The notes under the pieces: generated by a model | Database searches by the model: none | The model's input: the letters and a program-made list of their open reading frames with translations, nothing else | Told to the model about the DNA's origin: nothing | From: an uncultured Alistipes sp. | Lineage (GTDB): Bacteria; Bacteroidota; Bacteroidia; Bacteroidales; Rikenellaceae | Length of the DNA stretch: 64,000 nt | Assembly: GCA_944321185.1 (NCBI GenBank) | Contig: CALUKH010000004.1 | Location: 1 to 64,000, forward strand | Direction: 5' to 3' | Position numbers and translations under genes: made by a program | Part shown: one piece after another, positions 14,837-40,083 of the stretch | Layout of the letters: each line of letters starts with the position of its first letter | How positions within the stretch are numbered: position 1 is the first letter of the stretch

Positions 14837-14841
14837 ATTCG

Positions 14842-20453: not shown

Positions 20454-22824
20454 GTGCATTGACGAATTCGTGCGTGTAGTGACCCTTGTCGTCGTTCATG
20501 TAGAGGTAGAGATCGGCGTACCAGCGGGTCAGGTTGTTGCCGTCGCACAGCTCGTTGGGATATTTGAAGGCGGTAGTCCAGTTGTCGCCGGTTCCGGGCT
20601 GCAGATACCAGTAGGTTGCTGCGGTCGAGAAGCTGGGGCGTTCACCGTTCGAATCCATGCGGCCGTAGTACTGCGACTCGCCGCCGAGGACGAACTGGAA
20701 CTTGTAGCGCTCGTCGAATCCCCAGCTGGCCGACTGCAGTTTGATGTTGAGGTCGTGGATGGCCCAGACGCCCTTGCCTTCGTAGGTCATTTCAGTCGTT
20801 CCCGAGGTCCAGCAGAAGAAGTGCGAAACCTTGTCCACCGAGACGATATAGGCCTTGCCCGTAGCGACGTTGAAGCGGATACGGTAGATGCCGGTCTCGG
20901 CGATGGGAGCCTCGGCCTCGTCAGCCGAAGCGATCTCCTTGACCTGCGTGCCGTCGGCCGAGAGGGTGTAGAAGGCGTTCGAGAACTGCGAACGGAAGTA
21001 GAACTTGCTGCCGCCTTCGATGCGGGTGAAGATCTCGTATTTGTAGTCTTCGTCCTTGAAGCTGTCGATTTCGCCACCGGCCTGGTCGATGCCCGGGTTG
21101 TACGAATCGGCCGTGATGTAGGACATCTTCTGTCCGGCCTCGGTGCCGGTGCCGTCGATGTAGAGGGCGTCGCCGTCGCTGAAGTCCTTCACCTCGGTGG
21201 GGTTCACGAACTCATGCGTGTAATGGCCCTTGTCGGCGTTCATGTAGAGGTTGACGTCGGCAGCCCACTTGCCCAGATTCGAGTCGTCGCACAGCCAGGC
21301 CGGATACTTGAATACCCAGAAGTCCCAGCCCGTGTAGGAGAGCTGCAGCTCCCAGTAGGCGGGATCCTCGCTCTGGCTCGGGCGATCGTTGGTAACCGAG
21401 CCCTCGTTGTTCTTCGAGAGGCCCTGAACCGATTCGATGCCTTCGAGCTTCATCACGAAGCGGTAGCGGTCCTCCTTGTAGGAGCCCATGTCGCGCAGCT
21501 GGATGTGGTACTGCGAGAGCGTCCAGAGACCCTTGCCGGCGTAGTTCATCTCGGCATCGGTGTAGTTGTTCTGGTCGTAGCCGCCCCATGCGAAACGCAG
21601 GTTGATGTACTCGACCTTGCGCATGTCGAACTTGTTCGTGCCGTCGGCCTTGAAGCGGATGCGGTAGATACCGGCCTCTTCAACCGTGGTGTAGGTCTCG
21701 GCCTCATCCTCCTTCTCGACGAAACCGTCATTCGAGTCGGCCTTGAAGAAGTGGGTCTTTTCCTGATCCTCGTTCGTTGCGTAGAAGGCGTACTTCTCAC
21801 CGGCCTCCAGGCGCGTGAAGATCTCGTAATAGGGGAAGTCGTTCCAGTTCTGGCCTACCTTCTCCATGCGGTCGTGCCAGCTGTCGTTGTTGGTGGCGTA
21901 GTAGCCCTGGTCGATGTAGGAGGCCTTCTGACCGTTCTCGGTCGAGCCTTCGATGGCGATGTAGAGGTCATCGCCCTCGGAGAAGACGCCCACCTTCTTT
22001 TTCGGGATGATCGAGAAGTTGCGTACCTCCTCCGAGATCATCTCCGTCTGGTCGATGCTTGCGTAGACGGCCCACTTGAGCATGTAGGCATCCTCCGTGG
22101 CGGCAACCGACGAAGCGTTGTAGAGTTCGGTGAGCTGCTCCTTTGTGACGGTGGTCTGCGTGGCGGCAGCGGCGTCGGAGGTCGGGTTGATCTCGACGCT
22201 CAGCAGCGGATTCGTGAAGTCCTTGTCGGCGGCGTCGATGACCAGTCGGTAGGAGATCAGCTTCTCATCGCCGAGCCATACGGGCTCCGACCACGAGAAG
22301 GTGACGTCACCTTCGAGCTCCTTGAGGTTGATCACCTGATCCTTTTCGGGCGAGATGAGCGACTCGACGGCCACTTCCGAACGGGTCGTGAGGTTCATCG
22401 TCCGGGTTTCGGTCGAAGCCAGACGCCCCTGGTTCGAGGTGGTGTAGACGCGCCAGTCGAGCAGGGCCGATTCGCCGGCCTGATCGACATTCTCATCGAA
22501 GAGCTTCTGGACGTCCTCCAGTTGCAGCGTGTAGTTGCTTTCCGTGGTGGTGAAGCTGGCAACGGGGGCCGAGAAGTCGCCACCGTTCTTGTCGAATACC
22601 AGGTCGTAGCTTACTCCCTCGCCGACGGGCTGCCATTCGAAACGAATGCCCTCGAAGGCGTTGGGGTCAATCAGCAGCATGCTGACTTTCAGATTGTTTT
22701 TCGGAGCTTCCAGTTTCTGGACGCAGGCTGAACTCATGCTTTCAGAGTTCGTGTCGTCCGTCGAGCAGGAGACGAGCGTCGCTGCCAGTGCAAAGACGGA
22801 TAACAACGTTTTTTGAAGTGTCAT
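20446..22824 (-). CDS. Large SusE/SusF-like surface glycan-binding lipoprotein
   Basis: The 792-residue protein has lipobox LVSC (Cys20). Two N-terminal SusE-type Ig modules (about 40-150 and 155-275) carry the FxW...SY...FDK..GDF signature. Two long C-terminal repeats follow. Each has DGDALYI-like, YYEIFTR, GIYRIRF and a final LYMN-DKGHYTHEFVN block, the last being nearly identical in both. This fits SusE/SusF starch-binding proteins, which hold glycan at the cell surface without catalysis. It lies 46 bases after GH115 and overlaps GH43. The ligand is presumably the same glycan degraded by the PUL enzymes. Confidence 0.82.
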   Translation of the reverse strand: MTLQKTLLSVFALAATLVSCSTDDTNSESMSSACVQKLEAPKNNLKVSMLLIDPNAFEGIRFEWQPVGEGVSYDLVFDKNGGDFSAPVASFTTTESNYTLQLEDVQKLFDENVDQAGESALLDWRVYTTSNQGRLASTETRTMNLTTRSEVAVESLISPEKDQVINLKELEGDVTFSWSEPVWLGDEKLISYRLVIDAADKDFTNPLLSVEINPTSDAAAATQTTVTKEQLTELYNASSVAATEDAYMLKWAVYASIDQTEMISEEVRNFSIIPKKKVGVFSEGDDLYIAIEGSTENGQKASYIDQGYYATNNDSWHDRMEKVGQNWNDFPYYEIFTRLEAGEKYAFYATNEDQEKTHFFKADSNDGFVEKEDEAETYTTVEEAGIYRIRFKADGTNKFDMRKVEYINLRFAWGGYDQNNYTDAEMNYAGKGLWTLSQYHIQLRDMGSYKEDRYRFVMKLEGIESVQGLSKNNEGSVTNDRPSQSEDPAYWELQLSYTGWDFWVFKYPAWLCDDSNLGKWAADVNLYMNADKGHYTHEFVNPTEVKDFSDGDALYIDGTGTEAGQKMSYITADSYNPGIDQAGGEIDSFKDEDYKYEIFTRIEGGSKFYFRSQFSNAFYTLSADGTQVKEIASADEAEAPIAETGIYRIRFNVATGKAYIVSVDKVSHFFCWTSGTTEMTYEGKGVWAIHDLNIKLQSASWGFDERYKFQFVLGGESQYYGRMDSNGERPSFSTAATYWYLQPGTGDNWTTAFKYPNELCDGNNLTRWYADLYLYMNDDKGHYTHEFVNAHE

Positions 22825-25865: not shown

Positions 25866-27284
25866 TTATTTTACTTCGATCGAGTTGAGCAGATCGAGCT
25901 TTCCGTCGTGGATGAGCTTCAGAATCAGTTCGCCGAAGAGCGTGTTCTGCCAGGCAAACCACGGACGGGTGAACTTCGTGGGGTCGTCCTTGTGGAAGGA
26001 TTCGTGCATGAAGCCCGTGCCGGCATCGGTGGTCATCAGCATCTCGATGCACTCCTTGATTTCGGCATCGTCGGTCGACGTGAAGGCGCGCATCATGATG
26101 CTCATCGGCCAAACCATGTCGTAACCGATGTGCGGGCCGCCGATTCCTTCGCCGGCCTTGCCGCGGAAGAAGTAGGGGTTGGCCTCGCTCCAGACGAAGC
26201 GGCGCGTATTCTGGTAGATCGGGTCCGTGAGCTTGACATCACCCAGGTAGGGCATGGCCAGCAGGCTCGGCACATTGGCATCGTCCATCAGGAAGCGGTT
26301 GCCGAAGCCGTCCACCTCGAAGGCGTAGATCTTGCCGAACTGCGGGTGCTCCACGACGGCATACTTCTTCAGGGCAGCCTCGACCTCGTCGGCCAGAGCC
26401 GTGCACTCCTTGGCCAGGGCCTTTTCGCCGTTGACCTTGCGGAGGATCTCGGCGGCCTTGTGCAGCGACGAGACGGCCATGAAGTTCGACGGTACGAGGA
26501 AATCGAACGTCGTGGCGTCGTCCGACGGGCGGAACGACGAGACGATCAGTCCAACGGGATTGACCGGATTGCCCCAGCCGTCGCAGCACTTCGTGTCGAG
26601 CTGACGGTCGGTCATGCGGCGGAAGTAGTACGGGCCGTTTCCGTCGCGGCGCTGCTGCGTGCGCAACGTCGTGAGGATGTTCCGTACGGCGTCGATCCAG
26701 GCCTGGCCGAAGATCGATTCATCGCCCGTGGTCTTCCAGTAGTGGTAGGCCAGACGCAGCGGATAGCAGTGCGAGTCGATCTCCCACTTGCGCTCGTGCA
26801 CCTCGGGAAGGATCGGCGATCCGGTCTGGTCCGACTCCCAGTGGCTACCCGTCGCCCCGTCGTTGAAGGCGTTGGCGTAGGGATCCGTGTTGATGAGCTT
26901 GAACTGACGCACGATCACACCGGCAATCATGTTGCGCAGGTGTTCGTCTTGCGGAGCCAGCTGTACGTAGGGCCAAACCTGGGCACCCGAGTCGCGCAGC
27001 CACATGGCGTGGATGTCGCCCGTGTAGACAAACGTGTCGTAGAGACCGTCTTCACCCTTGTCCTTGAAGTGGACCGTGGTGTCGAGCGTGTTGGGGAAGC
27101 AGTTGCCGAACATCCAGGCCAGCTTGGGATTGGTCAGCTGGCTCTGGACTTCGGCGATCGTCTGCTCGACGGCTTCCGATACGAAGAGCCGATCCTGCGG
27201 TGCAGGGCGCTGCGACTCATAGTTTTGAGCCGCGAGCGCGCCGATGCACAGCAGACCGGAAAAGGTCAGAAGGAGTCGTTTCAT
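25866..27284 (-). CDS. Glycoside hydrolase family 125 exo-alpha-1,6-mannosidase
   Basis: The 472-residue protein has a signal peptide (cleavage near ALAAQ) and the GH125 hallmarks FVYTGDIHAMWLRDSGAQVW, DGATGSHWESDQT, WEIDSHCYPL, SSFRPSDDATTFDFLVPSN and SFHKDDPTKFTRPWFAWQN. GH125 enzymes release mannose from alpha-1,6-linked mannosides with inversion. Together with GH76 upstream this points to an alpha-1,6-mannan backbone. It begins 8 bases after the second SusE-like gene, consistent with tight co-transcription. Confidence 0.92.
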   Translation of the reverse strand: MKRLLLTFSGLLCIGALAAQNYESQRPAPQDRLFVSEAVEQTIAEVQSQLTNPKLAWMFGNCFPNTLDTTVHFKDKGEDGLYDTFVYTGDIHAMWLRDSGAQVWPYVQLAPQDEHLRNMIAGVIVRQFKLINTDPYANAFNDGATGSHWESDQTGSPILPEVHERKWEIDSHCYPLRLAYHYWKTTGDESIFGQAWIDAVRNILTTLRTQQRRDGNGPYYFRRMTDRQLDTKCCDGWGNPVNPVGLIVSSFRPSDDATTFDFLVPSNFMAVSSLHKAAEILRKVNGEKALAKECTALADEVEAALKKYAVVEHPQFGKIYAFEVDGFGNRFLMDDANVPSLLAMPYLGDVKLTDPIYQNTRRFVWSEANPYFFRGKAGEGIGGPHIGYDMVWPMSIMMRAFTSTDDAEIKECIEMLMTTDAGTGFMHESFHKDDPTKFTRPWFAWQNTLFGELILKLIHDGKLDLLNSIEVK

Positions 27285-27292
27285 CGCTGCGA

Positions 27293-28468
27293 TTATTTGT
27301 CACGGAACGAACGTTCGTGGTAATAGTCGGCCTCGTCGGTGTTGTTCATGTGGACACGGAACGTGGCCAGCTGACCGACACCTTCGCTGTCGCTCTTCGA
27401 CTTCCAGGAGTGATCCCACTCGTCGAGCGAGTTGTGCGTGAAGCGGTAGATGTTGTAGAACTTCGGATCGGCCTCCGGCGTAGCGTTGTTGCGGCAGTCG
27501 TCGTCCCAGAACGACCAGCGCTCGACGCTTTCGTCGTCGTAGGTGGCGATGAAGTAGTAACGCGTGTCGTTGCTGCTGCCGTTGGTGACAACCCATGCGA
27601 AGTCGACGAGCTCCCAAACGCCGTTGCCCGTGTAGGTCATCTCCTCCAGGCTGGAGGCGCCGAACCAGGGGTGGTTCCAGAACTCAACCTTGGCGATCTT
27701 CTTCATCGTCCAGGTCATGGTGTTGAAGTTCAGGTAGATCCAGTAGATGCCCTCGTCGGTAACCTCGTTGTTGGTCACCTCCTCGTAGGTGCAGCGCAGC
27801 GTACCGCCCTCCTCGAGAGCGTAGTAGCGGTCGAGGTTGTCCTTGACGGTGAACTGGCCGGCCGTCAGACGCGTGAAGCACTCCATGGCGCCCTGTTCGC
27901 GATCGGCGATGTGCTGACCCTTGGTCGTGCCGACGGGAAGTGCGGCGTTGAGTTTCACGACGCTCTGGTTTTCGGTAGCCGTACCTTCGATCGAGAGGGC
28001 TGCCGGCAGCGGGTCGACCGTATTGGGCAGCGTGATCTTGATCGTGCGGTAGTTCTGCGTGTCGACGATCTGGTTCATGCCCTGCATCGTGCGCACGGTC
28101 CATTTGATGGTCGTCGTCTCACCGGGCATGCCGCCGCACAGCGATACGATGGTCGAAAGCGTAGCCGTTTCGAGTTCAAGCGAGGGCTCGAAGCCGTTCG
28201 AGCCGCTCGTTGCGATGTAGGCCGGGTTGGAGAAGTCGCCCTCTTCCGAGTCGAAGAGCACCTGGTAGGCAACGCTGCCTGCCGAGGAGCTGGCCCACTC
28301 GAAGATGACCGACAGACCCGTCGAGGTTTCAATCGTATATTGATCTCTGGGGAAGTAGAGCTCGGGCGAGGTCAGTTCACCCGACTGCCCGTTCGATTCG
28401 TCGGAATCGCACGCCGTGGCGGTGAAGGCCAGCACGGCGGCCGTAAACAGATACAATATGTGTTTCAT
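27293..28468 (-). CDS. SusE-like outer-membrane lipoprotein (second copy)
   Basis: The 391-residue protein has lipobox TATAC (Cys20), one SusE-type module (VIFEWASS ... YQVLFDSEEGDFSNPAY), a linker, then a SusF-like carbohydrate-binding region ending in FRVHMNNTDEADYYHERSF. It probably binds the target glycan at the cell surface. It shares overall layout with the copy at 29754-30917, suggesting duplication. It sits 14 bases after GH76 and 8 bases before GH125. Confidence 0.75.
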   Translation of the reverse strand: MKHILYLFTAAVLAFTATACDSDESNGQSGELTSPELYFPRDQYTIETSTGLSVIFEWASSSAGSVAYQVLFDSEEGDFSNPAYIATSGSNGFEPSLELETATLSTIVSLCGGMPGETTTIKWTVRTMQGMNQIVDTQNYRTIKITLPNTVDPLPAALSIEGTATENQSVVKLNAALPVGTTKGQHIADREQGAMECFTRLTAGQFTVKDNLDRYYALEEGGTLRCTYEEVTNNEVTDEGIYWIYLNFNTMTWTMKKIAKVEFWNHPWFGASSLEEMTYTGNGVWELVDFAWVVTNGSSNDTRYYFIATYDDESVERWSFWDDDCRNNATPEADPKFYNIYRFTHNSLDEWDHSWKSKSDSEGVGQLATFRVHMNNTDEADYYHERSFRDK

Positions 28469-28482
28469 GGTTCAGTTCGGGA

Positions 28483-29739
28483 TTATTGGTATTTTTCAAT
28501 GAGCCACATCGACTCGATGGCCTGTGCGGCGCTGGCGTAAGCACCCTGCGAGCCGCCGGTACCGGGGTCACGGGGCGTCGTGCATTTTACACCGAAGTAG
28601 GAATCCTTCCATCCAACCGGGCTCTTGTCGATGCCGATGGTCCAGTAGTAGGAGGCGTGGCGCAGCACGTAGCGGCTCAGCTCCTGACGGATCGTCGGGT
28701 CAACGGCGTCGATATCCTTGTCGATGGCCATGCGGGCGGCCCAGTGGAAGAATACGGCGTGGAAGATCGAGTTGTTCTCGTCGGTACCCTCGTCGCGCAT
28801 GATACGCTCGCCGTTGTAGGTCTCGTTCATCGACGAAGAGGTCATCTGGCCGCGGGCAGCCGAGATTGCCTTCTGCAGGAAGCCGGTCTCACCGGTGAGT
28901 TTCCACAGCAGACGTCCGGCCTCCATGCAGGTACCCTGCGTGTAGCTCAGGGGTGGGTTGTCGAGCGTACCGTCGGAGTTCATGGCGTGGATGTTCTGGT
29001 CGAAGCAGGTCTGCGACTCGATCAGATACTGGTTGTACTCCTCGACGTTGCCGGCCTCCTTGGCATACTGGGCCAGCAAGGCCGAAGCGATGGCGCCGGG
29101 ACCGTTCGTACACGAGTTGGCACCCGTGTCGGTCATCTTCCACGGCAGCCAGCCGTACTTGTTCAGTGCGAAGCGGGGGCGTACGCACTCATCCCACGTC
29201 AGTTTGGCAGCGGTGTAGTAGGTCTGGTCGCCCGTTGCGTCGTACATCTGCAGCAGGGCGATGGTGATCCACAGCGTATCGTCCGTGAAGTCGTTGCCGA
29301 AGCCCGACGAGCCGCGCCACGTCGAGTTGCCCTCGTAGTTGTTGCCGCGCTTGTCGTACCAGCGCTTGAAGTAGCTGCGGATTACGGCTGCTTCGTCCGG
29401 GTCGGAGAGCTTGATTCGGTTGTAGTAGTCAACCATGGCAGCCATGGCGTGAGCCTGCTGCCAGTAGTTGTTACCGTTGTTCTTGTCGTTGTTGTATTCG
29501 CTGTAGGAGAATACACCGTCTGCGCCGTTGCGATTCGAGCTGCAGTAGAACCGTTCGATGAATGCGGTCGACACCGAATCCGCAGCCTCGGTCCAGTCGA
29601 TGTCGTAATCGGCATAGGCATTGGCCTTCTGTTCGGTCTTGGGGTTGGTGATCGACATGTAGTCTTCCTCGCAGGCGACGGGAAGGACGGCAAGCATTGA
29701 CAATACGAACAGGGTTCCCATGGATTTATTAAGTTTCAT
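28483..29739 (-). CDS. Glycoside hydrolase family 76 endo-alpha-1,6-mannanase
   Basis: The 418-residue lipoprotein (lipobox PVAC, Cys23) has GH76 motifs: YWQQAHAM (92-99), the catalytic Asp pair in NDFTDDTLW (153-154), NGPGAIASALL, YTQGTCMEAG and a C-terminal AQAIESMWL. GH76 cleaves internal alpha-1,6-mannosidic bonds, and surface anchoring fits an enzyme that makes oligosaccharides for SusC import. Start ATG 29739 begins the signal; the frame extends to 29781 but would overlap the upstream gene. Flanked by SusE-like genes on both sides at 14 bases. Confidence 0.92.
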   Translation of the reverse strand: MKLNKSMGTLFVLSMLAVLPVACEEDYMSITNPKTEQKANAYADYDIDWTEAADSVSTAFIERFYCSSNRNGADGVFSYSEYNNDKNNGNNYWQQAHAMAAMVDYYNRIKLSDPDEAAVIRSYFKRWYDKRGNNYEGNSTWRGSSGFGNDFTDDTLWITIALLQMYDATGDQTYYTAAKLTWDECVRPRFALNKYGWLPWKMTDTGANSCTNGPGAIASALLAQYAKEAGNVEEYNQYLIESQTCFDQNIHAMNSDGTLDNPPLSYTQGTCMEAGRLLWKLTGETGFLQKAISAARGQMTSSSMNETYNGERIMRDEGTDENNSIFHAVFFHWAARMAIDKDIDAVDPTIRQELSRYVLRHASYYWTIGIDKSPVGWKDSYFGVKCTTPRDPGTGGSQGAYASAAQAIESMWLIEKYQ

Positions 29740-29753
29740 AGTGTTCCGGTTGT

Positions 29754-30917
29754 TTATTTGAATTTGTATTCGTGCCACCACGTTCCGGCCGGGTTGTCAC
29801 CGTTCAGGTAGAGGTAGCAATCCAATGCGCGACCGCAGTCGCTCGAGAGGAAGTTGTAGGTTTTGTCCCAATCGACGTTACCGATCGTCTCGCTGGTGTA
29901 GAGTTTCACCTTCAGGTAGTCGGTCGTGTATTCCGATCCGAGGCTGCTCTGCGTACCCAGGTAGAGCTTCGAGCCATCGCCGAGCGTTGCGTTGAAGCGG
30001 TGACGCGTGTCGTTGGCCGAGTTGTCCGAGATGGTGTTCTCGTAGTCGAGCAGCACCCAAACGCCCTTGCCGGCATAGGTCATCGGCTCGCGTACGGTCG
30101 ACATCTTGTTGTCGGCCCAGGCGGCGGCGTAGTACTCGATGCTGGTGACGGTGTTCGACTCCCAGGTCATCACGCCGAAGTCGACCTTGATCCAGTAGAT
30201 GGCCTCCGACGGCATGCGGTTGTTGACCGGCGTTTCGGAGTAGGTGATCGTACCGTCGTTGTTCAGGGCGTAGTAGCGGCCCAGATCGTCGACGACGGTG
30301 AAGTCGGTGCTGCCCTTGATCTTGGTGAAGCACTCGAACGTACCCTCCGTAGCGGCGGTGTTGTCGATACCGGGCGATACGATCATCGGGATGCCGGCCG
30401 TCGGGTCTTCAACGGCGTCGCCCATCAGGGTGACGGTCTGCGGCAGCGGCGACATGGAGTTCATCGTCGTGACGGTGATCAGACGCGATTCCGTGTAGAC
30501 GCTTCCGTTGATGCCTTTCGAGGCGCGGACCGTCCAGCGCAGTTTGCCGGTCTCCATGATTCCGAGACCTGCGGCCTGGGCCACCGAGTTGAGTTCCTTG
30601 GCCGTGACGCTCAGATAGGTCTGCGAGCCGGTCAGCTGGCTGGTCATGGCGGCCAGCGGCTGTGAGAAGTCGCCGTTTTCGCGGTCGAAGAGCAGTTCGT
30701 AGGAGACGAATCCGTTGTCTTCGGCTACCGACGGGCTCCACTCGAAGCGTACGTCCGAACCCAGCGAAAGGTCATACTCGGCGTCGTTCTTCGGCAGATA
30801 GAGTTTGTCTCCGGTCTGGATGTTGTAGTTGATCTCATTGCCTTCGTCGCTGCATCCGGTGGCGAACGGCGCGGCCGCAAGGGCCAGGATCGTTATGTTT
30901 CGCAATAAGGTGTTCAT
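29754..30917 (-). CDS. SusE-like outer-membrane lipoprotein (first copy)
   Basis: The 387-residue protein has lipobox ATGC (Cys22), a SusE-type module (VRFEWSPS ... YELLFDRENGDFSQPLAA) and a SusF-like C-terminal region (MTYAGKGVWVLLDYENT, LDCYLYLNGDN). It follows susD by 35 bases, the usual position of SusE. Start 30917 gives a proper lipoprotein signal; the in-frame ATG at 30959 would overlap susD. It resembles the 27293-28468 copy in layout. Confidence 0.8.
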   Translation of the reverse strand: MNTLLRNITILALAAAPFATGCSDEGNEINYNIQTGDKLYLPKNDAEYDLSLGSDVRFEWSPSVAEDNGFVSYELLFDRENGDFSQPLAAMTSQLTGSQTYLSVTAKELNSVAQAAGLGIMETGKLRWTVRASKGINGSVYTESRLITVTTMNSMSPLPQTVTLMGDAVEDPTAGIPMIVSPGIDNTAATEGTFECFTKIKGSTDFTVVDDLGRYYALNNDGTITYSETPVNNRMPSEAIYWIKVDFGVMTWESNTVTSIEYYAAAWADNKMSTVREPMTYAGKGVWVLLDYENTISDNSANDTRHRFNATLGDGSKLYLGTQSSLGSEYTTDYLKVKLYTSETIGNVDWDKTYNFLSSDCGRALDCYLYLNGDNPAGTWWHEYKFK

Positions 30918-30952
30918 AATCTTCGGTTCGTTAGGATTGTTGCGGCAGAGAT

Positions 30953-32611
30953 CTACCATCCGGGATTCTGCGTGAGGTTGCTGTTGATATCCCGTTCGCT
31001 CTGCGGAATCGGGAACCAGTATTTCATGTTGTAGGGAGCCGGGCAGATGATGTTGCTGCCGTCATCGAGGAACGGGGCACCCGTAGCCTGCGAGGTCAGA
31101 TAGGCGGCGCCGGTGCTCTTGAGCGAGGGGTTGTCCATCAGGGCCCAGCGGCGGATGTCGAAGCAGCGGCGGCCCTCCAGGGCAAGCTCCGCACGACGCT
31201 CGTCGCGGATCGTCTGACGCAGATCCTGACCGTCGCCCGGGTATGCGCAGTAGGCTTCGTCGAATCCGGCGCGCTCACGCAGCGGACGGATCGTGGCGTT
31301 CCATACGTCGGCGCTCATCCGGCCGGTTTCGTACATCGACTCGGCGTACATGAGCAGTACGTCGGCATAACGCATCTCCATCAGGGGTTTGTACGAGCCG
31401 CCGCCGGCACCAACCGTGTTGGCCACGTAGTTCTTGATGTTGTAGTAACCCGTCTGCGTACGGTCCTGCGTGCTGTTGTACGAGTCGGCCAGTGCGGGGT
31501 CGGTCTGCTGAGCGATGGCTTCGTCATCGGGGTTGGTCCAGCAGGTGTAGGTACCTTTGCCGACGCCCTCCGAACCGATGATCTTGCAGGACTTGGCCTC
31601 GGGGATCTCGATCGTGCTGCCGTTGTAGGCGATCGTGGCGTAGAAGCGCAGGTCACGGTTCTCGTAATCCGTATCGTCGGCTACCGAGCCGTCGGTCTTG
31701 CGGAAGCAGTCCACGAGCTCCTGCGTGGGCGAGAACGAGACGATGCCGCCCGAGCCGATCGACTGCGGAACACGGCTACCGGTATCCCAGCTGCGCTTGA
31801 TGTCCTCCACGCCGCCTTCGTAGGCGAATTCGAGGGTCAGGATCGACTCCGGACCGTAGTGGCCCGAGCGGAAGAGTTCGGCATAGTCCGCAGCCAGGGC
31901 GTAGGTGCCGTATTCGGTGCTGTTGATGAGCTTCTCGCACTCGCGGGCGCAGTTCTCGAAGTCGTTGTCCAGCAGGTAGGCGCGGGCGTTCAGGGCCACG
32001 GCCGTACCGCACGTGACGCGGCCGTTCTCATCCGTGGGGATCTCGGTGTTCTTGGGCAGGATGTGCGATACCTCCTCCAGCTCCGAGTGGATGAAGGCCT
32101 TGATCTCATCGGCGCTCGTACGCGAAACGGCCTTCGATTCGGGGAGCGTGGGGTTGCTCGTCAGGAAGGGCACGTCACCGAACCACGTCGTCAGACGCAT
32201 GTAGGTGAAGGCCCGGAAGAGCCGCAGCTCGGCCACCAGACGCGTCTTGACGCTTTCGTCGATGTTCATGCGGTTCTGGTTGTCCAGCGCCGTGTGGATC
32301 GTACGCAGCTCCTGGTAGCACTGGTTCCATTCATCGGAGAAGCGGCCTCCGCTGGTGGTGGACAGACCCGTCACCGTGTTGGTCGAGTTCGACGAGTGGC
32401 GGCTTCCGTAGACGTCATCCGATAGGATGTTGTTGCCGAAGTACATGTCGGCATTCCAGTATTGGTTGTAGGCGAGGTAGAGGGCTGCCATGCAGTTGTC
32501 CTCGTAGTTCCAGAAAGTCTCGTCGGTGAAGGAGTTGGTGGGGTATTGCTCGATGCCGACGCAACCGACCAGTCCCAACATCAGTAACGAGAGTATGGCG
32601 TGTTTTTTCAT
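30953..32611 (-). CDS. SusD/RagB-family nutrient-binding lipoprotein
   Basis: The 552-residue outer-membrane lipoprotein has lipobox LVGC (Cys17), an opening IEQYPTNSFTDETFW typical of SusD, the TPR-containing SusD-like N-terminal domain, and the C-terminal RagB fold (ALEGRRCFDIRRWALM, then FPIPQSERDIN). SusD caps the SusC barrel and delivers oligosaccharide. It follows susC by 16 bases. Confidence 0.95.
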   Translation of the reverse strand: MKKHAILSLLMLGLVGCVGIEQYPTNSFTDETFWNYEDNCMAALYLAYNQYWNADMYFGNNILSDDVYGSRHSSNSTNTVTGLSTTSGGRFSDEWNQCYQELRTIHTALDNQNRMNIDESVKTRLVAELRLFRAFTYMRLTTWFGDVPFLTSNPTLPESKAVSRTSADEIKAFIHSELEEVSHILPKNTEIPTDENGRVTCGTAVALNARAYLLDNDFENCARECEKLINSTEYGTYALAADYAELFRSGHYGPESILTLEFAYEGGVEDIKRSWDTGSRVPQSIGSGGIVSFSPTQELVDCFRKTDGSVADDTDYENRDLRFYATIAYNGSTIEIPEAKSCKIIGSEGVGKGTYTCWTNPDDEAIAQQTDPALADSYNSTQDRTQTGYYNIKNYVANTVGAGGGSYKPLMEMRYADVLLMYAESMYETGRMSADVWNATIRPLRERAGFDEAYCAYPGDGQDLRQTIRDERRAELALEGRRCFDIRRWALMDNPSLKSTGAAYLTSQATGAPFLDDGSNIICPAPYNMKYWFPIPQSERDINSNLTQNPGW

Positions 32612-32627
32612 AGACTTGTACGTGTTT

Positions 32628-35600
32628 TTAGAAAGTCAGATTGATACCGCCGCCCCAGTAGCGAAGGGTCGGGTAGTTACGCAGGGAGTTGGCGCCGGAT
32701 TTGCCCATGTTGCTTCCGAACTCCGAGCTTTCGGGATCGAAGAACCCGTATTTGGTAAAGGTCAGCGGGTTCTGAGCGTCGAGATAGATGCGCAGGCTCT
32801 TGCAGCCGAACTTCTTGGTCCAGCGCTCGGGCAGCGTGTAGCCCAGCTGAATGTTCTTCACGCGCAGGTAGGCCGTCTCAACCATGTTGAGCTCCGAACC
32901 GGGCTGATCCCAGTTGTTGGTGTTGCTGACGGTGCCGTTGACGGCCAGACGAGGCCATCTTGCATCGGTGTTCTGCGGGGTCCAGTAGTCGAGCTGGTGC
33001 TCGTACATCGTCAGACCGTAGTCGGCGTGGAACGGCTGCACGAGCTCACCGCGGATGGCCTGCGTACGCTTCATGACGCCCTGGAGCATGATGCCCAGAT
33101 CGATGCCCTTCCAGCTGACGTTGTAGCTGAAGCCGTAGGTGTAGCGCGGGAAGGCGTAGCCCAGATAGGTACGGTCGTCGTTGTCGATTACGCCGTCCTC
33201 GTTGATATCCAGGTAGCGGACGTCACCCGGACGCAGCTGCGAGCGGTCGATCGTCGAGGGGATGGCGGCGTTCTGAATCTCTTCGTAGTTCGAGAACAGG
33301 CCGACAACCTTGTAGCCGTAGTAGGAGTTGAGCGGAAGACCCTCCTGAATGATGGTGGTCACACCGTCGACCGAAGCGATGTTCGGCGTACCGTAGGTAA
33401 CGACCTCGTTCTTCGAGTCGGCGAGGTTGAGCGAGAAGCGGTGCTTCCAGGCGCCGCGGTTCAGATCGTAGTTGATCGTCACCTCCCAACCGCGGTTGTC
33501 CATCACGCCTCGGTTCTCCTTGGCGATGCTGGCGCCGAAGACGCCCGGAACGATGGCCGGCAGCAGGATGTCCGACGTACGCTTGTAGAAGTAGTCGAAG
33601 TTGACGTTCAGGGTGTTGTGGAAGAACGAGGCATCAAGACCGACGTTGAAGGTCTTCGAGCGCTCCCACGTCAGGGCTTCGTTACCCATCGTGAACATCA
33701 GGCCCGGAACCGTGCTTCCGTTGAAGCCGTAGGCATCGGTCCAGATTCCGTAGGTGGTCATGAAGTCGTACAGACCCACATCCTGCTGGTTACCGTTGAT
33801 ACCGTACGAAGCACGGAACTTCAGGTCGCCGACCTTGTTGCGGTAGTCACCCATGAACTCCTCTTCGGAGAGGCGCCATCCGAGCGATACGGCCGGGAAG
33901 AAACCGCCGTTGCGCTCCTTGAGGAACTTCGACGACATATCGTAACGGGCCGTGAACTCCACGTAGTATTTGTCGGCGTAGGAGTATCCCACACGGCCGA
34001 ACCACGACTGAAGGGCCTGACGCGTGTTGTCCTGCGACGAAAGGGTCGTACCGCTGTCGCTGGTCACGGTGCCTTCACCGGGCTGGTTCAGGTCGTTCAG
34101 ATAGGTCTTCGAGGCGTTGATCGAGTAGTGCTTCTTCGACTCCTGCGACCAACCGAACAGGGCCGTTACGTTGTGCTTTTCGGCGAACGTGCGGTTGAAG
34201 TCCAGCAGGACCTGACCGTTGAGATAGGTGTCGCGACCTACCCAGTCGTCGGCGGGCGTCGTGGTGCTTCCCGAGAGGACGGCCGTCGAGGGATCGGACC
34301 AGTTGGCACCGTTGTCCGTTACGACGTAATAGGTCATGTGGTCCGAGAAACGGTGCTCGGTACGCGTCTCGGCGCTGAGTACACCGCGGAGTTTCAGACC
34401 CTTGAAGATCTCCAGATCGGCATTGAAGATACCGCTCAGATAGTCGTTGTCATACTTGTTGTACCCCCCCCCGACAAGTCCGGCCAATACGGCACCGCTG
34501 CCGCCATACTTATAGTTATTGCCGTAGAAGATGCCGTTTTCGTCCATCGTACGCATGAAGTAATAGGTCGGGTAGCGCGACAGGTCGGCGAAGAGGAATC
34601 CCGACGTGGTAGGCGATTTGGTTTCGGAACGCGTGTAGCTGATGTTGGCGCCGACCTTCAGGCGACCCCACTCGGTCGTGAGGTTCGAACGCACGTTGTA
34701 ACGCTGACGACCGTAGTCCGGGCCGATGTAGTTGGACTCCTGATCGAAGTAACCGGCCGAGAGCATGTAGGTCGAGTGTTTCGTACCGCCCGATACGGAG
34801 AGGTTGTAGTTCTGCTGCAGGGCGTTCTTCATGGCCTGGTTGACGTAGGGTTCGCAGTCGCCGTGAATGTACATGTCCTGGATCTCGGCGGCCGAGAAGA
34901 TCGGCTCGCGGCCCGAGTTGGTCAGGGCCTCGTTGCGCAGAATCGAGTTCTGATACGAAGGAACGGGCTCGAAGAGGATGTGCGGATCCTGCACGCCGAG
35001 CTGAGCGCTGAACGAAATGGTCGGATCCATTTCGCGGTGGCCCTGCTTGGTGGTGATCAGGATGACACCGTTCGACGAGCGGGCACCGTAGATGGCGGCC
35101 GAACCGGCATCCTTGAGGATGTTGACCGACTCGATGTCGTTGGGGTTGAGCTCGTTCATTCGCGAAGCATCGGCCTGAGGCACACCGTCGATAACCACCA
35201 GCGGGGTGTTGTTACCCATGGTGTTGACGCCTCGGATCGAAAGGTTCATCTGGTCGCCGCCCGTCGGGTCGTAGTTGCGGGTCTGAATGATCAGGTTGGC
35301 CGCCGTACCCTGCAGGGCCTGTTGGATGTTGGCCACGGGTCGGTCGGCGAGGTCTTCGCGATTGACCGTCGAGATGGCCGAGGTGATGTGACGACGCGTG
35401 GTGGTACCGTATCCGATAACGACCACTTCGTCCAGGTAGCTCGTGTCTTCGGTCATGGTCAGCGAGATTTCGGTTTTCGTACCGACGCTCTCCGTGACGG
35501 TTTTGTAGCCGAGGTAGACGAACTTCAGCTGGTCGGAGTCCTTGACTCCCTTGATGAGATAGGTACCGTCGGCACCGGTGGCCGTACCGTTGACCGTTCC

Positions 35601-35759
35601 GTCGACGATCACGGAGACTCCGACAAGCGGTTGCCCCTTCTCATCCACGATTCTGCCGCTTACCGATTTGGTTGCGGACTGCCCGTAAGCTCCGTTGATC
35701 CCGATAGCGATCAGACACCACAGCAATGCGAGCATGCATGAAATCGATTTCTTGATCAT
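32628..35759 (-). CDS. SusC/RagA-family TonB-dependent transporter
   Basis: The 1043-residue outer-membrane transporter has a signal peptide (ending ...AYGQS), a carboxypeptidase-regulatory-like domain (SGRIVDEKGQPLVGVSV, about 33-105), the SusC signature DEVVVIGYGTTTRR, a plug domain with SIRGVNTMG and a 22-strand-type barrel ending in GGINLTF. With SusD it imports oligosaccharides using TonB energy. Codons 430-432 are an uninterrupted G9 run (Gly-Gly-Gly), a possible slippage site; it is in frame here. First gene of the leftward operon; it has a -7 element at 35823-35830. Confidence 0.95.
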   Translation of the reverse strand: MIKKSISCMLALLWCLIAIGINGAYGQSATKSVSGRIVDEKGQPLVGVSVIVDGTVNGTATGADGTYLIKGVKDSDQLKFVYLGYKTVTESVGTKTEISLTMTEDTSYLDEVVVIGYGTTTRRHITSAISTVNREDLADRPVANIQQALQGTAANLIIQTRNYDPTGGDQMNLSIRGVNTMGNNTPLVVIDGVPQADASRMNELNPNDIESVNILKDAGSAAIYGARSSNGVILITTKQGHREMDPTISFSAQLGVQDPHILFEPVPSYQNSILRNEALTNSGREPIFSAAEIQDMYIHGDCEPYVNQAMKNALQQNYNLSVSGGTKHSTYMLSAGYFDQESNYIGPDYGRQRYNVRSNLTTEWGRLKVGANISYTRSETKSPTTSGFLFADLSRYPTYYFMRTMDENGIFYGNNYKYGGSGAVLAGLVGGGYNKYDNDYLSGIFNADLEIFKGLKLRGVLSAETRTEHRFSDHMTYYVVTDNGANWSDPSTAVLSGSTTTPADDWVGRDTYLNGQVLLDFNRTFAEKHNVTALFGWSQESKKHYSINASKTYLNDLNQPGEGTVTSDSGTTLSSQDNTRQALQSWFGRVGYSYADKYYVEFTARYDMSSKFLKERNGGFFPAVSLGWRLSEEEFMGDYRNKVGDLKFRASYGINGNQQDVGLYDFMTTYGIWTDAYGFNGSTVPGLMFTMGNEALTWERSKTFNVGLDASFFHNTLNVNFDYFYKRTSDILLPAIVPGVFGASIAKENRGVMDNRGWEVTINYDLNRGAWKHRFSLNLADSKNEVVTYGTPNIASVDGVTTIIQEGLPLNSYYGYKVVGLFSNYEEIQNAAIPSTIDRSQLRPGDVRYLDINEDGVIDNDDRTYLGYAFPRYTYGFSYNVSWKGIDLGIMLQGVMKRTQAIRGELVQPFHADYGLTMYEHQLDYWTPQNTDARWPRLAVNGTVSNTNNWDQPGSELNMVETAYLRVKNIQLGYTLPERWTKKFGCKSLRIYLDAQNPLTFTKYGFFDPESSEFGSNMGKSGANSLRNYPTLRYWGGGINLTF
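34464..34472 (-). repeat. G9 homopolymer run inside susC
   Basis: Nine C's on the plus strand are nine G's in the coding strand, encoding Gly430-432. This is the longest homopolymer noticed within a gene of the window. Loss or gain of a base would truncate SusC at about 40 percent of its length. Confidence 0.85.
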
Positions 35760-35850: not shown

Positions 35851-35879
35851 TTGTACGATTTTATGCCATTTCAGTACAA
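35851..35879. promoter_or_regulatory. Candidate regulator binding site between susC and the HTCS gene
   Basis: GTACGATTTTATGCCA (35853-35868) matches one arm of the palindrome at 8628-8660 in 15 of 16 positions. It is enclosed by a short inverted repeat TTGTAC (35851-35856) and GTACAA (35874-35879). It lies 22 bases upstream of the susC -7 element, where an activator would replace the -33 element. Confidence 0.55.
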
Positions 35880-35884
35880 AAATA

Positions 35885-35892
35885 TACTTTTG
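35885..35892 (+). promoter_or_regulatory. -7 promoter element (distal) of the regulator gene
   Basis: TActTTTG matches the consensus. It starts 5 bases after the inverted repeat site, so binding there could also affect the regulator's own transcription. Confidence 0.4.
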
Positions 35893-35917
35893 GCGTGTTT
35901 TGTGTTGGAAAAAAGCT

Positions 35918-35925
35918 TACATTTG
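35918..35925 (+). promoter_or_regulatory. -7 promoter element (proximal) of the regulator gene
   Basis: TAcaTTTG lies 18 bases before the chosen ATG at 35944. It supports that start over the open frame reaching back to 35851. Confidence 0.45.
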
Positions 35926-35943
35926 AGGGTAAATAGTACGATT

Positions 35944-38900
35944 ATGGACATGAGACCCCTGTTTCGGACGGTTTTGGCGAGTACGCTGGCCGTTGTGTCG
36001 CTGTCGGGGCTTCGGGCCGGGAATCTGCGGATGATTTCCAGCCGCGAGGGGATCAGCAACAACTCCGTTTTGTGCCTGGATCAGGATGCGGAGGGCTTCA
36101 TCTGGCTCGGGACCTGCGAGGGTCTCAACTTCTGGGACGGACAGCAAATGGGCTGTTATCCGCCCGAGGGGAGCGGCATGAAGCCCCTGTCGGGCAATCT
36201 GATCGAGAAGATCCATCCGACACTGGACCACTACAGCTGGCTGCGCACCAACTACGGGCTGGATCTGATGCATCGCAACCGCGTCATCGAACAGCACAAG
36301 GAGTTTCAGGGAATCTACTACCTGATCTGCCGGAACCGCTCCGAGACGATCGTCCTCACGCAGGGCGATGCCTTCTACGGTTACTGCGAGGAGGACTCGA
36401 CGTTCCGGCGCATCGAGACCCTCTTCCCGTTCGAGAGCTATATCGCCTCCTGGGCCGGGGCCGGCGACGAGGTCTATCTTTTCCGCACGGATGGAATCTT
36501 CCGGACCTCGTTTGCCGAGCGTCAGCCCGGACAATCGTGCCGGCTGCGGGCGATGGAGTGTGTGCAGCCGATGGGGTTGAGCTATGCCTTCGCCGATCAG
36601 GACCAGGTGTTGCTGATCGACGAGCGGGGCTACCTCTATACCTTCGATCCGAAGAACGAGGTGTTGGAGTACATCGACGACATCAGCGGCGAGATCGCCC
36701 GCTACGGCAAGGTCTCCTATGCCATTCGCCACGGCGACGATTTCCTGGTGTCGTTCCTCTTCGACGGCGTCACGAAGCTCCGCTTCACGCCCGAGAATCC
36801 GCGCCGCTATGTCACCGAACGGCTCGACATCAATTGCGGTGTCTTCTGTCTGCTGAAGGATGCCAAACAGGATGTCGTCTGGATCGGCAGCGACGGCCAG
36901 GGCCTCTTCATGTATGCCAATGACGAGCTCTCGTTCCATTCGTACACCTACGACAAACTCCCCTACAACCTCTCCAAACCGGTCCGCAGTCTGCTGCTGG
37001 ACTCCACCGGCAAGCTGTGGGTGGCCACCAAGGGGGAGGGCATTGTCCAGATTCCGGACTTCTCGACGGCCCGCAAACCTGATGAGTTCGTGCAGATCAA
37101 CGGACGCGGATCGGGTTTGGCCGATCACGCCGTCTTTGCGCTGGAGGAGAGTGCCCGCGGGGTGGTCTGGATCGGATCCGAGGGGTACGGACTCAACTAC
37201 CAGTCGCTGGCGGGCGGACCGGTTCGGACGCTGGAGGGCGATTTGCCGCCCGATCTGCGCTACGTGCATGCCATTCACGAGAGCCATCGCGATACGCTGT
37301 GGGTGGCTACGGTGGGTTGCGGGGTCTTTCGCCTGACGCTCGGACAGCGGGGCGGTCAGCCTTACGTCCGGGCGTGGAAGAAACTGGACTTCGGACCCAA
37401 TCTCGAGAACAAGACCTTCTTCTTCACGCTGGTCGAGGACAGCGACCATACGCTCTGGATCGGTAACCGCGGCGGAGGCCTGATCCACTACTTCCCGGAC
37501 CGGGACTCCTGCACGGTGACCTCCTTCTCCGATTCGCGGGCCGAGATTGCCAACGACGTCTGGGCCATTCACCGCGCGGCCGACGGCCGGCTGTGGATCG
37601 GCACGAGCTGGGGGCTGCTGTCACTGGCGGCCGACGGACGGGTGAGCGAGACGCCGATCCGCAACATCGTCCACGGCATCCTGGAGGATGGCGACGGAAA
37701 GCTCTACCTCTCGACCAACAGCGGACTGGTGCGCTACGATCCCGAGTCGCAGTCGCATGCCCGCTACGGCTACTCGTACGGCATCAACACGATCGAATAC
37801 AGCGACGGCGCCGCCTGGAAGGATCCCGCGACCGGACAGCTCTTTTTCGGCGGCACGAACGGGTTCGTGGTCGTCGAGCAGACCCGTTACCGGAGCGAAC
37901 CCTTCTACCCCGAACTGCTCTTCCGCTACGTGCGGATCAACGAGCGGCTGATCCCTTTTGACGATGTCGTCACGCGCGACAGCATCCTCGTCGTGCGTCC
38001 CCGCCAGCGGCTCTACGACGTGGGGGTCATCGCCCTCGACTACATCAACGGCAGCAATTACACCTATCTCTACAACGTCGAGGGGATGGAGAACCGCTGG
38101 CTCGAATCCTCGTCGGTGGTTCAGTTTGCCGAGCGGCACCCGGGGCGCTACCGGCTCAACGTGCGCTACAAGAATGTGGTGACGGGGGATCTGGGACCGA
38201 TCCGCTCGCTGCTGGTCGTCATCCGCGCACCGTGGTATACGAGCGTGGTGGCCAAAATTCTGTATGCCCTGTCGTTCGTGTTCGTGACGACGGTGGTCAG
38301 CCGTTACTGGTACCGCCGCCGGCAGCGGCAGCAGGCGGCCGCCCTGGAGCGCATCGAGGCCAAACGCAAGGAGGAGATCCTCGATTCGAAACTCCATCTG
38401 ATGGAGAATCTGGCCCAGCAGATGGCCGGTCCGGTCTTCATGATCTCGGTGCCGTGCCAGCAGATGCTCGACTACGCGCAGTCGGACGACTACATCCGCC
38501 GCCGGTCGAGGCGGATCCTCCGCCAGGGCGAGAAGCTGTCGAACATCATCCACATGCTGCACAACTTCCGCGAATCGAGCGAATCGGGCAACAACATCAA
38601 CGTGAAGATCTTCTCCGTGACGGAGTATGTCACGGAGATCGCCAAGAGCTACGAATCGCTGGCCCGCGAGCGGGAGATCCGCTTCGAGATGCAGCTTCCC
38701 GAGGAGCTGCTCTGGACGAGCGATCCGAAGCGGGTCTCCTCGATCGTGGACATGAGCATGACCAATGCCTTCCTGCACGTGGCCCGGCGCGGGCGGATCG
38801 CCCTCCGTGTGGCGGCCGAACAGGAGCAGCTCGTCATCCGGCTCGAGGTCGAGGGCCACTGGCTCGACGGCGAGGAGTTCGGACGTCTGACCGACCGTTA

Positions 38901-40083
38901 CGACATGATGGACGATTTCCAGCGGTCGGGCGAACGCGGCGAGTCGTTCCAGGACGAGATGCGACTGGTGGTCTGCTACAACTACGTGACGGGTCTGGGC
39001 GGAACGATGCATCTGGAGAATGCCGAGGGGCATTTCACCCTTCAGATTGCGCTCCCGTCGCTGAGCATCGCCTCGTCGGAGGCCGAATCGGCCGGGGAGT
39101 TCTCCGAGGAGTATCTGCCCAACAGTCACATCCTGATGATCGACAAGGAGAAGATCCGCCAGTTTGACACGGCGTCGGACCGCCCGAAGATGTTCATCAT
39201 CGGTACCGATGCCGGCATCATCAACTCCATCGCCGAGATGTTCTCCGAGGAGTACAACATCCGCACGTTCCGCCATGCGGACAAGTTCACGGAGGAGATG
39301 CAGGCCGGCTATCCGGACATCATCCTCTGCGAGAACATCACCATGAAGGAGGAGCTCTCGGAGCTGATGGCTTCGGTCAAGCGCGACCGCATGACGGTGA
39401 AGATCCCCATCATCCTGATCACGAGCCTGCAGCATGCCGATTCGCTGACCGACGAGTATGCGGATTCGGTGCTGTCGCTGCCGATCAACGTCAAGACGCT
39501 GCAGTTCACCGTCAAGCAGAATCTGAACCGGATCAGTTCGCTGCGCGAGTATTACAATTCGGCGGTGAGTGTCTACGAGTTCAGCGACGGCAAGATGCTG
39601 CACAGCGACGACCGGATGTTCCTCGAGAAGCTCTTCAAGATCATCCAGGAGAACCTCTCGGACAGCAGCATGACCACCGCGACGATCGCCGAGCGGATGG
39701 GCATGAGCCTGCGCAATCTCTACCACCGGCTCAACGGGCTGGTGAATGTCTCGCCGAGCAACATCATTCGCGAGTACCGGCTGGCCTATGCCGAGCATCT
39801 GCTGACGAAGACCAAGCTTTCGGTCGACGAGATCATCTACAAGTCGGGCTTCACGAACCGCGGCACCTTCTTCAAGAACTTTTCGGCCAAGTACGGCTGT
39901 ACGCCGCGCACCTACCGCAGCCGGAAGATGGAGGATCTCTCCGAGTCGGGCGAACTGTCCGGGCCGGAGGCTGCGGATCAATCGCCGGCCGGGTCCGCTT
40001 CCGCGGGATCGGGGGCCGATGCGCCGGGTGAGGCTGCGCCCTCCGCGGATGCCGGGGCGGACGATCCGTCGCGCCAGTCCTGA
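35944..40083 (+). CDS. Hybrid two-component regulator with degenerate kinase and receiver domains
   Basis: The 1379-residue inner-membrane regulator has a signal peptide and periplasmic sensor propellers with repeated W[IV]G/A..G.G motifs (GFIWLGTCEGLN, VVWIGSDGQGL, KLWVATKGEG, TLWIGNRGGG, RLWIGTSWG). A Y_Y_Y-type domain and one membrane helix (about 764-788) follow. The kinase H-box reads NLAQQMAGP where NISHEFRTP is usual, placing Gln825 at the phosphoacceptor His. The ATPase region lacks DTGIG-like glycines. The receiver (about 1083-1200) has PDIILCENITM, Glu1130 replacing the Asp, and LPIN in place of KPF. The C-terminal AraC-type HTH (about 1240-1335) looks intact. Divergent from susC, it presumably controls the PUL in response to an oligosaccharide. 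Confidence 0.9.
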   Translation: MDMRPLFRTVLASTLAVVSLSGLRAGNLRMISSREGISNNSVLCLDQDAEGFIWLGTCEGLNFWDGQQMGCYPPEGSGMKPLSGNLIEKIHPTLDHYSWLRTNYGLDLMHRNRVIEQHKEFQGIYYLICRNRSETIVLTQGDAFYGYCEEDSTFRRIETLFPFESYIASWAGAGDEVYLFRTDGIFRTSFAERQPGQSCRLRAMECVQPMGLSYAFADQDQVLLIDERGYLYTFDPKNEVLEYIDDISGEIARYGKVSYAIRHGDDFLVSFLFDGVTKLRFTPENPRRYVTERLDINCGVFCLLKDAKQDVVWIGSDGQGLFMYANDELSFHSYTYDKLPYNLSKPVRSLLLDSTGKLWVATKGEGIVQIPDFSTARKPDEFVQINGRGSGLADHAVFALEESARGVVWIGSEGYGLNYQSLAGGPVRTLEGDLPPDLRYVHAIHESHRDTLWVATVGCGVFRLTLGQRGGQPYVRAWKKLDFGPNLENKTFFFTLVEDSDHTLWIGNRGGGLIHYFPDRDSCTVTSFSDSRAEIANDVWAIHRAADGRLWIGTSWGLLSLAADGRVSETPIRNIVHGILEDGDGKLYLSTNSGLVRYDPESQSHARYGYSYGINTIEYSDGAAWKDPATGQLFFGGTNGFVVVEQTRYRSEPFYPELLFRYVRINERLIPFDDVVTRDSILVVRPRQRLYDVGVIALDYINGSNYTYLYNVEGMENRWLESSSVVQFAERHPGRYRLNVRYKNVVTGDLGPIRSLLVVIRAPWYTSVVAKILYALSFVFVTTVVSRYWYRRRQRQQAAALERIEAKRKEEILDSKLHLMENLAQQMAGPVFMISVPCQQMLDYAQSDDYIRRRSRRILRQGEKLSNIIHMLHNFRESSESGNNINVKIFSVTEYVTEIAKSYESLAREREIRFEMQLPEELLWTSDPKRVSSIVDMSMTNAFLHVARRGRIALRVAAEQEQLVIRLEVEGHWLDGEEFGRLTDRYDMMDDFQRSGERGESFQDEMRLVVCYNYVTGLGGTMHLENAEGHFTLQIALPSLSIASSEAESAGEFSEEYLPNSHILMIDKEKIRQFDTASDRPKMFIIGTDAGIINSIAEMFSEEYNIRTFRHADKFTEEMQAGYPDIILCENITMKEELSELMASVKRDRMTVKIPIILITSLQHADSLTDEYADSVLSLPINVKTLQFTVKQNLNRISSLREYYNSAVSVYEFSDGKMLHSDDRMFLEKLFKIIQENLSDSSMTTATIAERMGMSLRNLYHRLNGLVNVSPSNIIREYRLAYAEHLLTKTKLSVDEIIYKSGFTNRGTFFKNFSAKYGCTPRTYRSRKMEDLSESGELSGPEAADQSPAGSASAGSGADAPGEAAPSADAGADDPSRQS

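Follow-up and report, generated by a model that had tools for sequence, protein, structure and literature searches.

A hybrid two-component regulator lacking both phosphotransfer residues beside an Alistipes polysaccharide utilization locus

The nearest published case to the gene described here is BT4236, a hybrid two-component system (HTCS) regulator of Bacteroides thetaiotaomicron which carries Gln848 in place of the phospho-histidine and for which, in a single sentence, phosphorylation-independent action is suggested (PMC11253607, 2024). According to the same source, the receiver of B. thetaiotaomicron HTCS inhibits the helix-turn-helix (HTH) by way of an interface whose predicted centre is a S/CHIP-DK motif, substitutions in this motif raise DNA binding without phosphorylation and, as its discussion puts it, deviation from the motif is able to uncouple DNA binding from phosphorylation; HTCS with a non-consensus motif include BT2391, BT2628, BT3302, BT3786 and BT4236. 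The second, third and fourth of these are mannan regulators (HTCS_Man), with predicted operators of two 16-bp sites and a 5-bp spacer (PMC3878776). The gene in question here (35944-40083) lies in a stretch of 64,000 nucleotides, hereafter the window, from an uncultured Alistipes sp. (assembly GCA_944321185.1, contig CALUKH010000004.1, positions 1 to 64,000 of the forward strand), and its product, hereafter the query, is an HTCS-derived regulator in which both the phospho-histidine and the phospho-aspartate have been replaced.

RetS, a pseudo-histidine kinase, and DivL tune other kinases; they have the kinase fold predicted for the query, and both match its model, but in the query this fold is fused to a DNA-binding output. 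DivL is also termed a pseudo-histidine kinase in a published abstract. Receivers without phosphorylation residues are known from ChxR, HP1043, FrzS and the plant PRRs, whereas the receiver of the query sits in one chain with its own degenerate kinase and glycan sensor, and none of those named in the accessible text of PMC12632262 is so joined. That source gives base rates of 0.9% for HisKA domains without the His and 2.0% for receivers without the Asp. BT4236 shares with the query a Gln at the phospho-His position, but only loss of the His is mentioned for it and its motif reads CSIP-EK, as against VKIP with Asp and Arg in the query, the comparison being one of published descriptions (PMC11253607). 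The HTCS_Man proteins resemble the query in HTCS architecture and in their position beside alpha-mannan-type polysaccharide utilization loci (PULs), whereas loss of His or Asp is not reported for these three in the accessible text of PMC11253607 and PMC3878776, again compared by description. No account of an HTCS without both residues, nor of an Alistipes example, was found in the open-licence papers searched, and passages of PMC3404733, PMC4395418 and PMC11784079 contain nothing on HTCS without His or Asp. An HTCS lacking both would be an extension of the kind represented by BT4236, with sensor, degenerate kinase, degenerate receiver and DNA-binding output united in a single chain.

Architecture and missing residues of the regulator

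The gene is an open reading frame (ORF) of 1379 amino acids, and its parts follow the HTCS order of propeller, Y_Y_Y, membrane helix, kinase, receiver and AraC-type HTH. The mechanical ORF runs further 5′ (35851-35943), via a TTG, across a non-coding block conserved in eight aligned sequences of group A (the query and eight other proteins 64-87% identical to it, nine in all); since this block lies directly upstream, the ATG at 35944 is the likely start. The features of the gene are as follows.

35944-40083, forward strand: HTCS-derived regulator without phospho-His and phospho-Asp, 1379 aa (Pfam, alignments)
36016-37923, forward strand: periplasmic propeller region, residues about 25-660 (Reg_prop; 4a2l, 3v9f)
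38038-38208, forward strand: Y_Y_Y domain, residues about 699-755
38245-38313, forward strand: membrane helix, residues about 768-790 (hydrophobic stretch, by eye in the translation)
38365-38598, forward strand: DHp helices, residues about 808-885 (modelled as two long helices; histidine kinase fold matches)
38416-38418, forward strand: Gln825 codon CAG at the phospho-His position (alignments)
38599-39063, forward strand: degenerate HATPase domain, residues about 886-1040, retaining N941 but neither G1 nor G2 (Pfam, alignment, model)
39193-39543, forward strand: pseudo-receiver, residues about 1084-1200, alpha4 region three residues shorter (models, alignment)
39202-39207, forward strand: Gly1087-Thr1088 replacing the acid pair (alignment)
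39331-39333, forward strand: Glu1130 codon GAG at the phospho-Asp position (alignments)
39397-39408, forward strand: VKIP replacing the inhibitory S/CHIP loop motif (alignment; motif from PMC11253607)
39478-39486, forward strand: Leu1179-Pro-Ile1181 replacing Lys-Pro-Phe (alignment)
39685-39924, forward strand: AraC-type HTH (HTH_18; 3lsg match, TMt 0.88)

The residue register was read from MAFFT alignments of 31 and of 52 proteins, in both of which Gln825, Glu1130 and Leu1179 occupy the columns of the canonical His, Asp and Lys. An independent phmmer alignment to the HTCS receiver and HTH structure 12aw gave the same register, with LCEN opposite ISDV and LPIN opposite KPFS. The replacements first proposed in a sequence-only reading of the window (Gln for the H-box His, Glu for the receiver Asp, LPIN for KPF) are thereby borne out, as is its remark that the ATP-binding glycine box is unrecognizable: in the 52-protein alignment the G1 box N-x-G-x-G reads VEGHWLD and the G2 box GLGLA reads DEMRLV. 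The Glu following the H-box His is also replaced (Gln826, Gln in all nine group A rows), and the acid pair of the metal pocket has become Gly1087-Thr1088, with Gly1087 at the first acid. N-box Asn941 and Thr1160 are retained. The remaining DHp histidines (818, 870, 873) lie outside the H-box register, either seven residues earlier or in the second helix. The same His, Asp and Lys replacements, which that reading had suggested looking for in close relatives, are present in 9/9 group A proteins. These alignments support the loss, shared by the close relatives, of the two phosphotransfer residues together with the ATP glycine boxes.

The propellers and AraC-type HTH, described earlier as intact, do score well in Pfam (Reg_prop 95 bits, HTH_18 71.1 bits), and solved structures related to the query include the sensor domains 4a2l and 3v9f of two-component proteins as well as 12aw. 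HATPase_c (20.0 bits, cut-off 26.4) and Response_reg (12.3 bits, cut-off 30.2) are both sub-threshold, and Y_Y_Y (24.3 bits) falls slightly under its cut-off of 26.6. AlphaFold models of the cytoplasmic part (mean predicted local distance difference test, pLDDT, 78.3; predicted template modelling score, pTM, 0.52) and of the receiver with the HTH (mean pLDDT 81.4, pTM 0.50) contain the DHp helices, the HATPase fold, the receiver and the AraC HTH, and the folds of kinase, receiver and HTH are thus predicted ones. The Foldseek matches of the cytoplasmic model include ShkA, DivL and RetS (TMt about 0.80) alongside numerous ordinary kinases, and the receiver-HTH model matched receivers and AraC domains; 12aw was not among the 50 matches listed for this model of pTM 0.50. 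The protein therefore has the Reg_prop sensor with Y_Y_Y, the AraC-type output and, as a prediction, the kinase fold of an HTCS, and it lacks the H-box His, the ATP G boxes, the receiver Asp, acid pair and Lys, and the S/CHIP-DK motif, which is common in HTCS and not universal. Descent shared with canonical HTCS is indicated by a tree in which it groups with eight canonical relatives (support 100/99), and its predicted receiver fold without catalytic residues is that of a pseudo-receiver.

Relatives and the pattern of loss

The 52-row alignment, made after eight identical proteins were dropped, includes 33 proteins from outside the clade of the query; these were found by similarity to it and are not a random HTCS sample. 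One tree was built, without the diagnostic columns, from 36 of the 52 rows, and a second from 29. In the first, groups A, B, B′ and C together with L021 form a single clade (18 tree rows, support 100/100) beside the eight canonical relatives. A further group A member, L026, shares 76% identity with the query and carries every group A residue; it is in neither tree and is counted in the residue tallies. L030 ends before its receiver. The 33 outsiders keep the His (33/33), the Asp (33/33) and, with one exception, the Lys (32/33), whereas the clade has lost the His in 17 of 19 members, the Asp in 16 of 18 receivers and the Lys in all 18. In each of these 18 the receiver Lys has become Leu and the first acid is missing, and the HTH Lys is replaced by Arg, as it also is in 8 of the 33 outsiders.

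The two group C proteins (L020, L029) retain His and Asp, and their G2 box already reads GDLALA. Group B (L018, L027, L028, L030, L046) has Gln for His, in group B′ (L062, L068) the His is replaced by Arg and the N-box Asn by Tyr, and L021 has Thr and Asn at the His and Asp positions. The Asp position of the seven His-less sister receivers is occupied by Gly in three and Glu in one (group B), by Ala and Thr in one each (group B′) and by Asn in one (L021). L021, whose neighbourhood is that of L057 (genome G086), has its regulator in two overlapping ORFs of different frames and sits on a long branch, and little weight is placed on it; it may be decaying or misread.

Approximately unbiased (AU) tests, run after the 36-row tree had been seen and with the His-less set defined by residue and not by tree, rejected a single clade of all His-less rows (p 0.00122; without L021, p 0.00161), while a clade of A and B was only marginally rejected (p 0.0493); A and C group together with support 84/84. 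Parsimony requires a minimum of two changes for the His, which may be a single loss followed by regain in group C, and the best tree without regain has four losses (A, B, B′ and L021). Rejection of a single His-less clade is in keeping with parallel losses; unless both His and Asp were regained in group C, these trees imply two or more losses of the His. The pattern fits an order in which the Lys and the metal acid went first, together with some of the glycine box, and His and Asp followed. Whether a glycan-sensor lineage passed in this way, stepwise and repeatedly in parallel, from a His-Asp phosphorelay to purely allosteric transmembrane gene control is a proposal to which we give an even chance; loss of the switch Lys and first metal acid would have decoupled phosphate from output, His and Asp would then have decayed independently, and groups C, B and A would be the intermediates, regulating related alpha-mannan loci.

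Mean dN/dS was calculated for seven of the nine group A members and four of the five in group B (whole-protein dS finite in 15 of 21 A pairs); for single segments 13 to 17 of the 21 pairs were finite, with synonymous differences of 0.51-0.66 per site nearing saturation. Group A values were 0.133 for the propeller, 0.222 for Y_Y_Y, 0.203 for membrane and coil, 0.126 for DHp, 0.225 for HATPase, 0.314 for the linker, 0.149 for the receiver and 0.111 for the HTH; constraint is weaker in group B (0.300 overall). By this measure every group A domain is under purifying selection, and selection thus maintains the degenerate kinase and receiver. In both trees the group A stem is long (1.15-1.22 changes per column) compared with its tips, in keeping with rapid change when the group arose and stability afterwards.

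Genome searches scored the top two candidates per genome and their counts are lower bounds. In the family, at least 16 of 268 genomes have a clade member (A 8, B 5, C 2, L021 1); beyond it (393 genomes), two more families have members of the clade, one of group A (G631) and the other of B′ (G290, G403), and a class-wide draw of genomes (395, E ≤ 1e-150) gave no further clade member. Seven of the eight named records of close relatives are Alistipes and the other is a Bacteroidales bacterium. Among the HTCS-like genes (E ≤ 1e-12) of two Alistipes genomes, 3/7 in G163 and 1/6 in G054 are without the His; degenerate HTCS are therefore not limited to the clade of the query. The query and its relatives also show that phosphate signalling is not to be presumed for the HTCS genes of gut genomes.

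The three genes of G163 are L083, L094 and L095. L094 has Tyr for both the His and the N-box Asn and keeps Asp and Lys; L095, the kinase part of which aligns poorly, has Arg for His, Glu for Asp and Asn for Lys. A paralogue in the query's own genome, L002 (C1:60331-63432), keeps His and Asp, but its receiver Lys is Met (MPLS) and its acid pair is altered.

Probable signalling without phosphotransfer and its rivals

We consider it probable that the query is a pseudo-HTCS, a membrane-anchored regulator driven by conformation and without His-Asp phosphotransfer. Signalling by conformational change, as the sequence-only reading had it, is the best inference here. Residue loss, conservation, selection, clade membership and PUL linkage are read from sequence; what we infer are a lack of in-cell phosphorylation, control by the ligand purely through shape, the DNA target and the substrate. 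An oligosaccharide would bind the periplasmic propellers, and the signal would reach the DHp dimer by way of Y_Y_Y and the membrane helix. The DHp dimer would then shift the tethered pseudo-receiver and AraC domain so that the dimer could occupy an operator in the interval separating susC from the regulator gene. Competence for DNA binding would be built in, with the propeller exerting control through the geometry of the membrane-bound dimer; mimicry by Glu1130 may contribute in group A.

The receiver of group A has several peculiarities. All nine rows carry a three-residue deletion around alpha4 (0/42 other receiver-bearing rows), where the model has a helix of four residues at a local pLDDT of about 71-73. 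The Phe at K+2 is replaced by Ile in 9/9, with Phe in 41 of the 42 other rows and Leu in one; Ile, Val, Leu or Ala at this position favours active CheY conformations (PMC12632262). The loop HIP has become KIP in 9/9, and the query reads VKIP with D1223 (alpha6) and R1262 (alpha8). K+2 Ile, VKIP and Glu1130 could each favour a released receiver, and the group A receiver is probably biased to a released, active-like state by K+2 Ile, VKIP, the shortened alpha4 and perhaps Glu1130.

Several points weigh against the pseudo-HTCS reading. Group C retains His and Asp, and phosphate may still matter in that part of the clade. The interdomain confidence of both models is low (pTM 0.52 and 0.50), and off-register DHp histidines persist, His818 being present in all group A rows of the 31-protein alignment. 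The canonical relatives, too, follow the S/CHIP-DK motif loosely (Ser or Cys in 7, His in 24, alpha6 Asp in 22 and alpha8 Lys in 25, each of 33), which leaves the change from His to Lys as the one telling difference. The putative operator is assigned from its conservation, and constitutive or repressor action is a real rival.

In that rival, the regulator is locked on or locked off, binding DNA constitutively as activator or repressor with ligand sensing no longer in control. The fixed K+2 Ile and VKIP of group A would suit it, as would the phosphate-free DNA binding obtained with loop substitutions and the repression of its PUL by the non-consensus HTCS BT2391 (PMC11253607). However, purifying selection on the propeller is about as strong as on the rest (0.133), which suggests that sensing is still used, and we regard a locked regulator as unlikely. 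Slightly better placed, though still doubtful, is the suggestion carried over from the sequence-only reading that Glu1130 is a built-in phosphomimic switching the receiver on, which is compatible with conformational signalling. What stands of it is that Glu is fixed in group A (9/9 rows, with one codon in the seven examined), the only group where it is so, and that receivers without the Asp most often have Glu instead (PMC12632262). As a general explanation it is weak: the Lys, to which a part in holding such a Glu is ascribed (PMC12632262), is lost in 18/18 clade receivers, the acid pocket is gone from the query, the residue in most His-less sister lines is Gly, Ala, Thr or Asn, and such ideas have been disproved in some cases (PMC12632262). 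Mimicry is possible only where the Glu is present, and even there is weakened by the missing Lys.

A partner role, in which the query would form mixed dimers with another kinase or HTCS and lend it DNA binding or tune it, could draw on the predicted DHp fold and on RetS and DivL among the fold matches, although many ordinary kinases match as well. A Pfam scan of 39 other ORFs of the window (of 156 listed) named no other two-component or AraC protein, leaving no candidate partner among them, and the four HTCS paralogues of the genome are only 23-24% identical, so that mixed dimers are not expected; this role is quite improbable. Scarcely credible is a decaying gene, a pseudogene in the making. 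The many lost catalytic residues and the split L021 would agree with decay, but mean dN/dS lies at 0.11-0.31 in every group A segment, all nine rows have open frames of 1340-1384 aa, and the upstream block and PUL synteny are conserved.

The utilization locus and a candidate operator

The regulator is divergent from a susC/susD-like pair, which is followed by genes for SusE-like proteins and for glycoside hydrolases (GH) of families 76, 125, 115, 43 and 97.

32628-35759, reverse strand: SusC-like TonB receptor
30953-32611, reverse strand: SusD-like protein
29754-30959, reverse strand: SusE-like surface protein
28483-29781, reverse strand: GH76
27293-28468, reverse strand: SusE-like surface protein
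25866-27284, reverse strand: GH125 alpha-mannosidase
22871-25855, reverse strand: GH115
20446-22824, reverse strand: SusE-domain protein
18690-20459, reverse strand: GH43 with SusE domains
16550-18544, reverse strand: GH97

From the enzyme families, GH76 and GH125 together presumably point to alpha-mannan as the predicted substrate. Fourteen neighbourhoods were compared: four of group A (L047-L050), four of group B, two of group C, that of L057 and those of the canonical L058, L059 and L060. susC/susD and GH76 are syntenic in 4/4 group A neighbourhoods, with GH125 in 3/4 of the 18-kb stretches, and in those of groups B and C a GH125 matched at 74-78% lies about 5 kb or less from the regulator. 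The canonical L060 has GH125 (72%), GH76, susC and susD alongside, and at least one canonical relative therefore occupies a similar locus; L058 has GH76-like genes, with GH125 not within the examined stretch, and neither GH76 nor GH125 was seen in the neighbourhoods of L059 and L057. Canonical and half-lost relatives beside related PULs form a natural series for testing.

Between susC and the regulator gene lies a conserved block which is suggestive as a candidate operator.

35853-35887, no strand assigned: operator-like conserved block with two GTAC 21 bp apart, suggestive only

These 35 bp are conserved in the eight aligned group A sequences, and the GTAC pair at 21-bp spacing is found in 7/8, L043 having GTGC; the published mean HTCS site spacing is also 21 bp (PMC3878776). 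A 25-base pattern from the block occurs once, at up to three mismatches, in the query's own metagenome-assembled genome (79% complete). A direct-repeat operator was considered and rejected, as the 16-mers are a poor repeat, the best pairs of 21-bp period are located elsewhere and a comparable GTAC pair was not seen in the ten upstream stretches from groups B and C and canonical loci.

Beyond the GH97 gene, on the same strand, the window has a GtaA-type glutaminase-like protein and a sulfatase (12305-16540). The target glycan might be sulfated.

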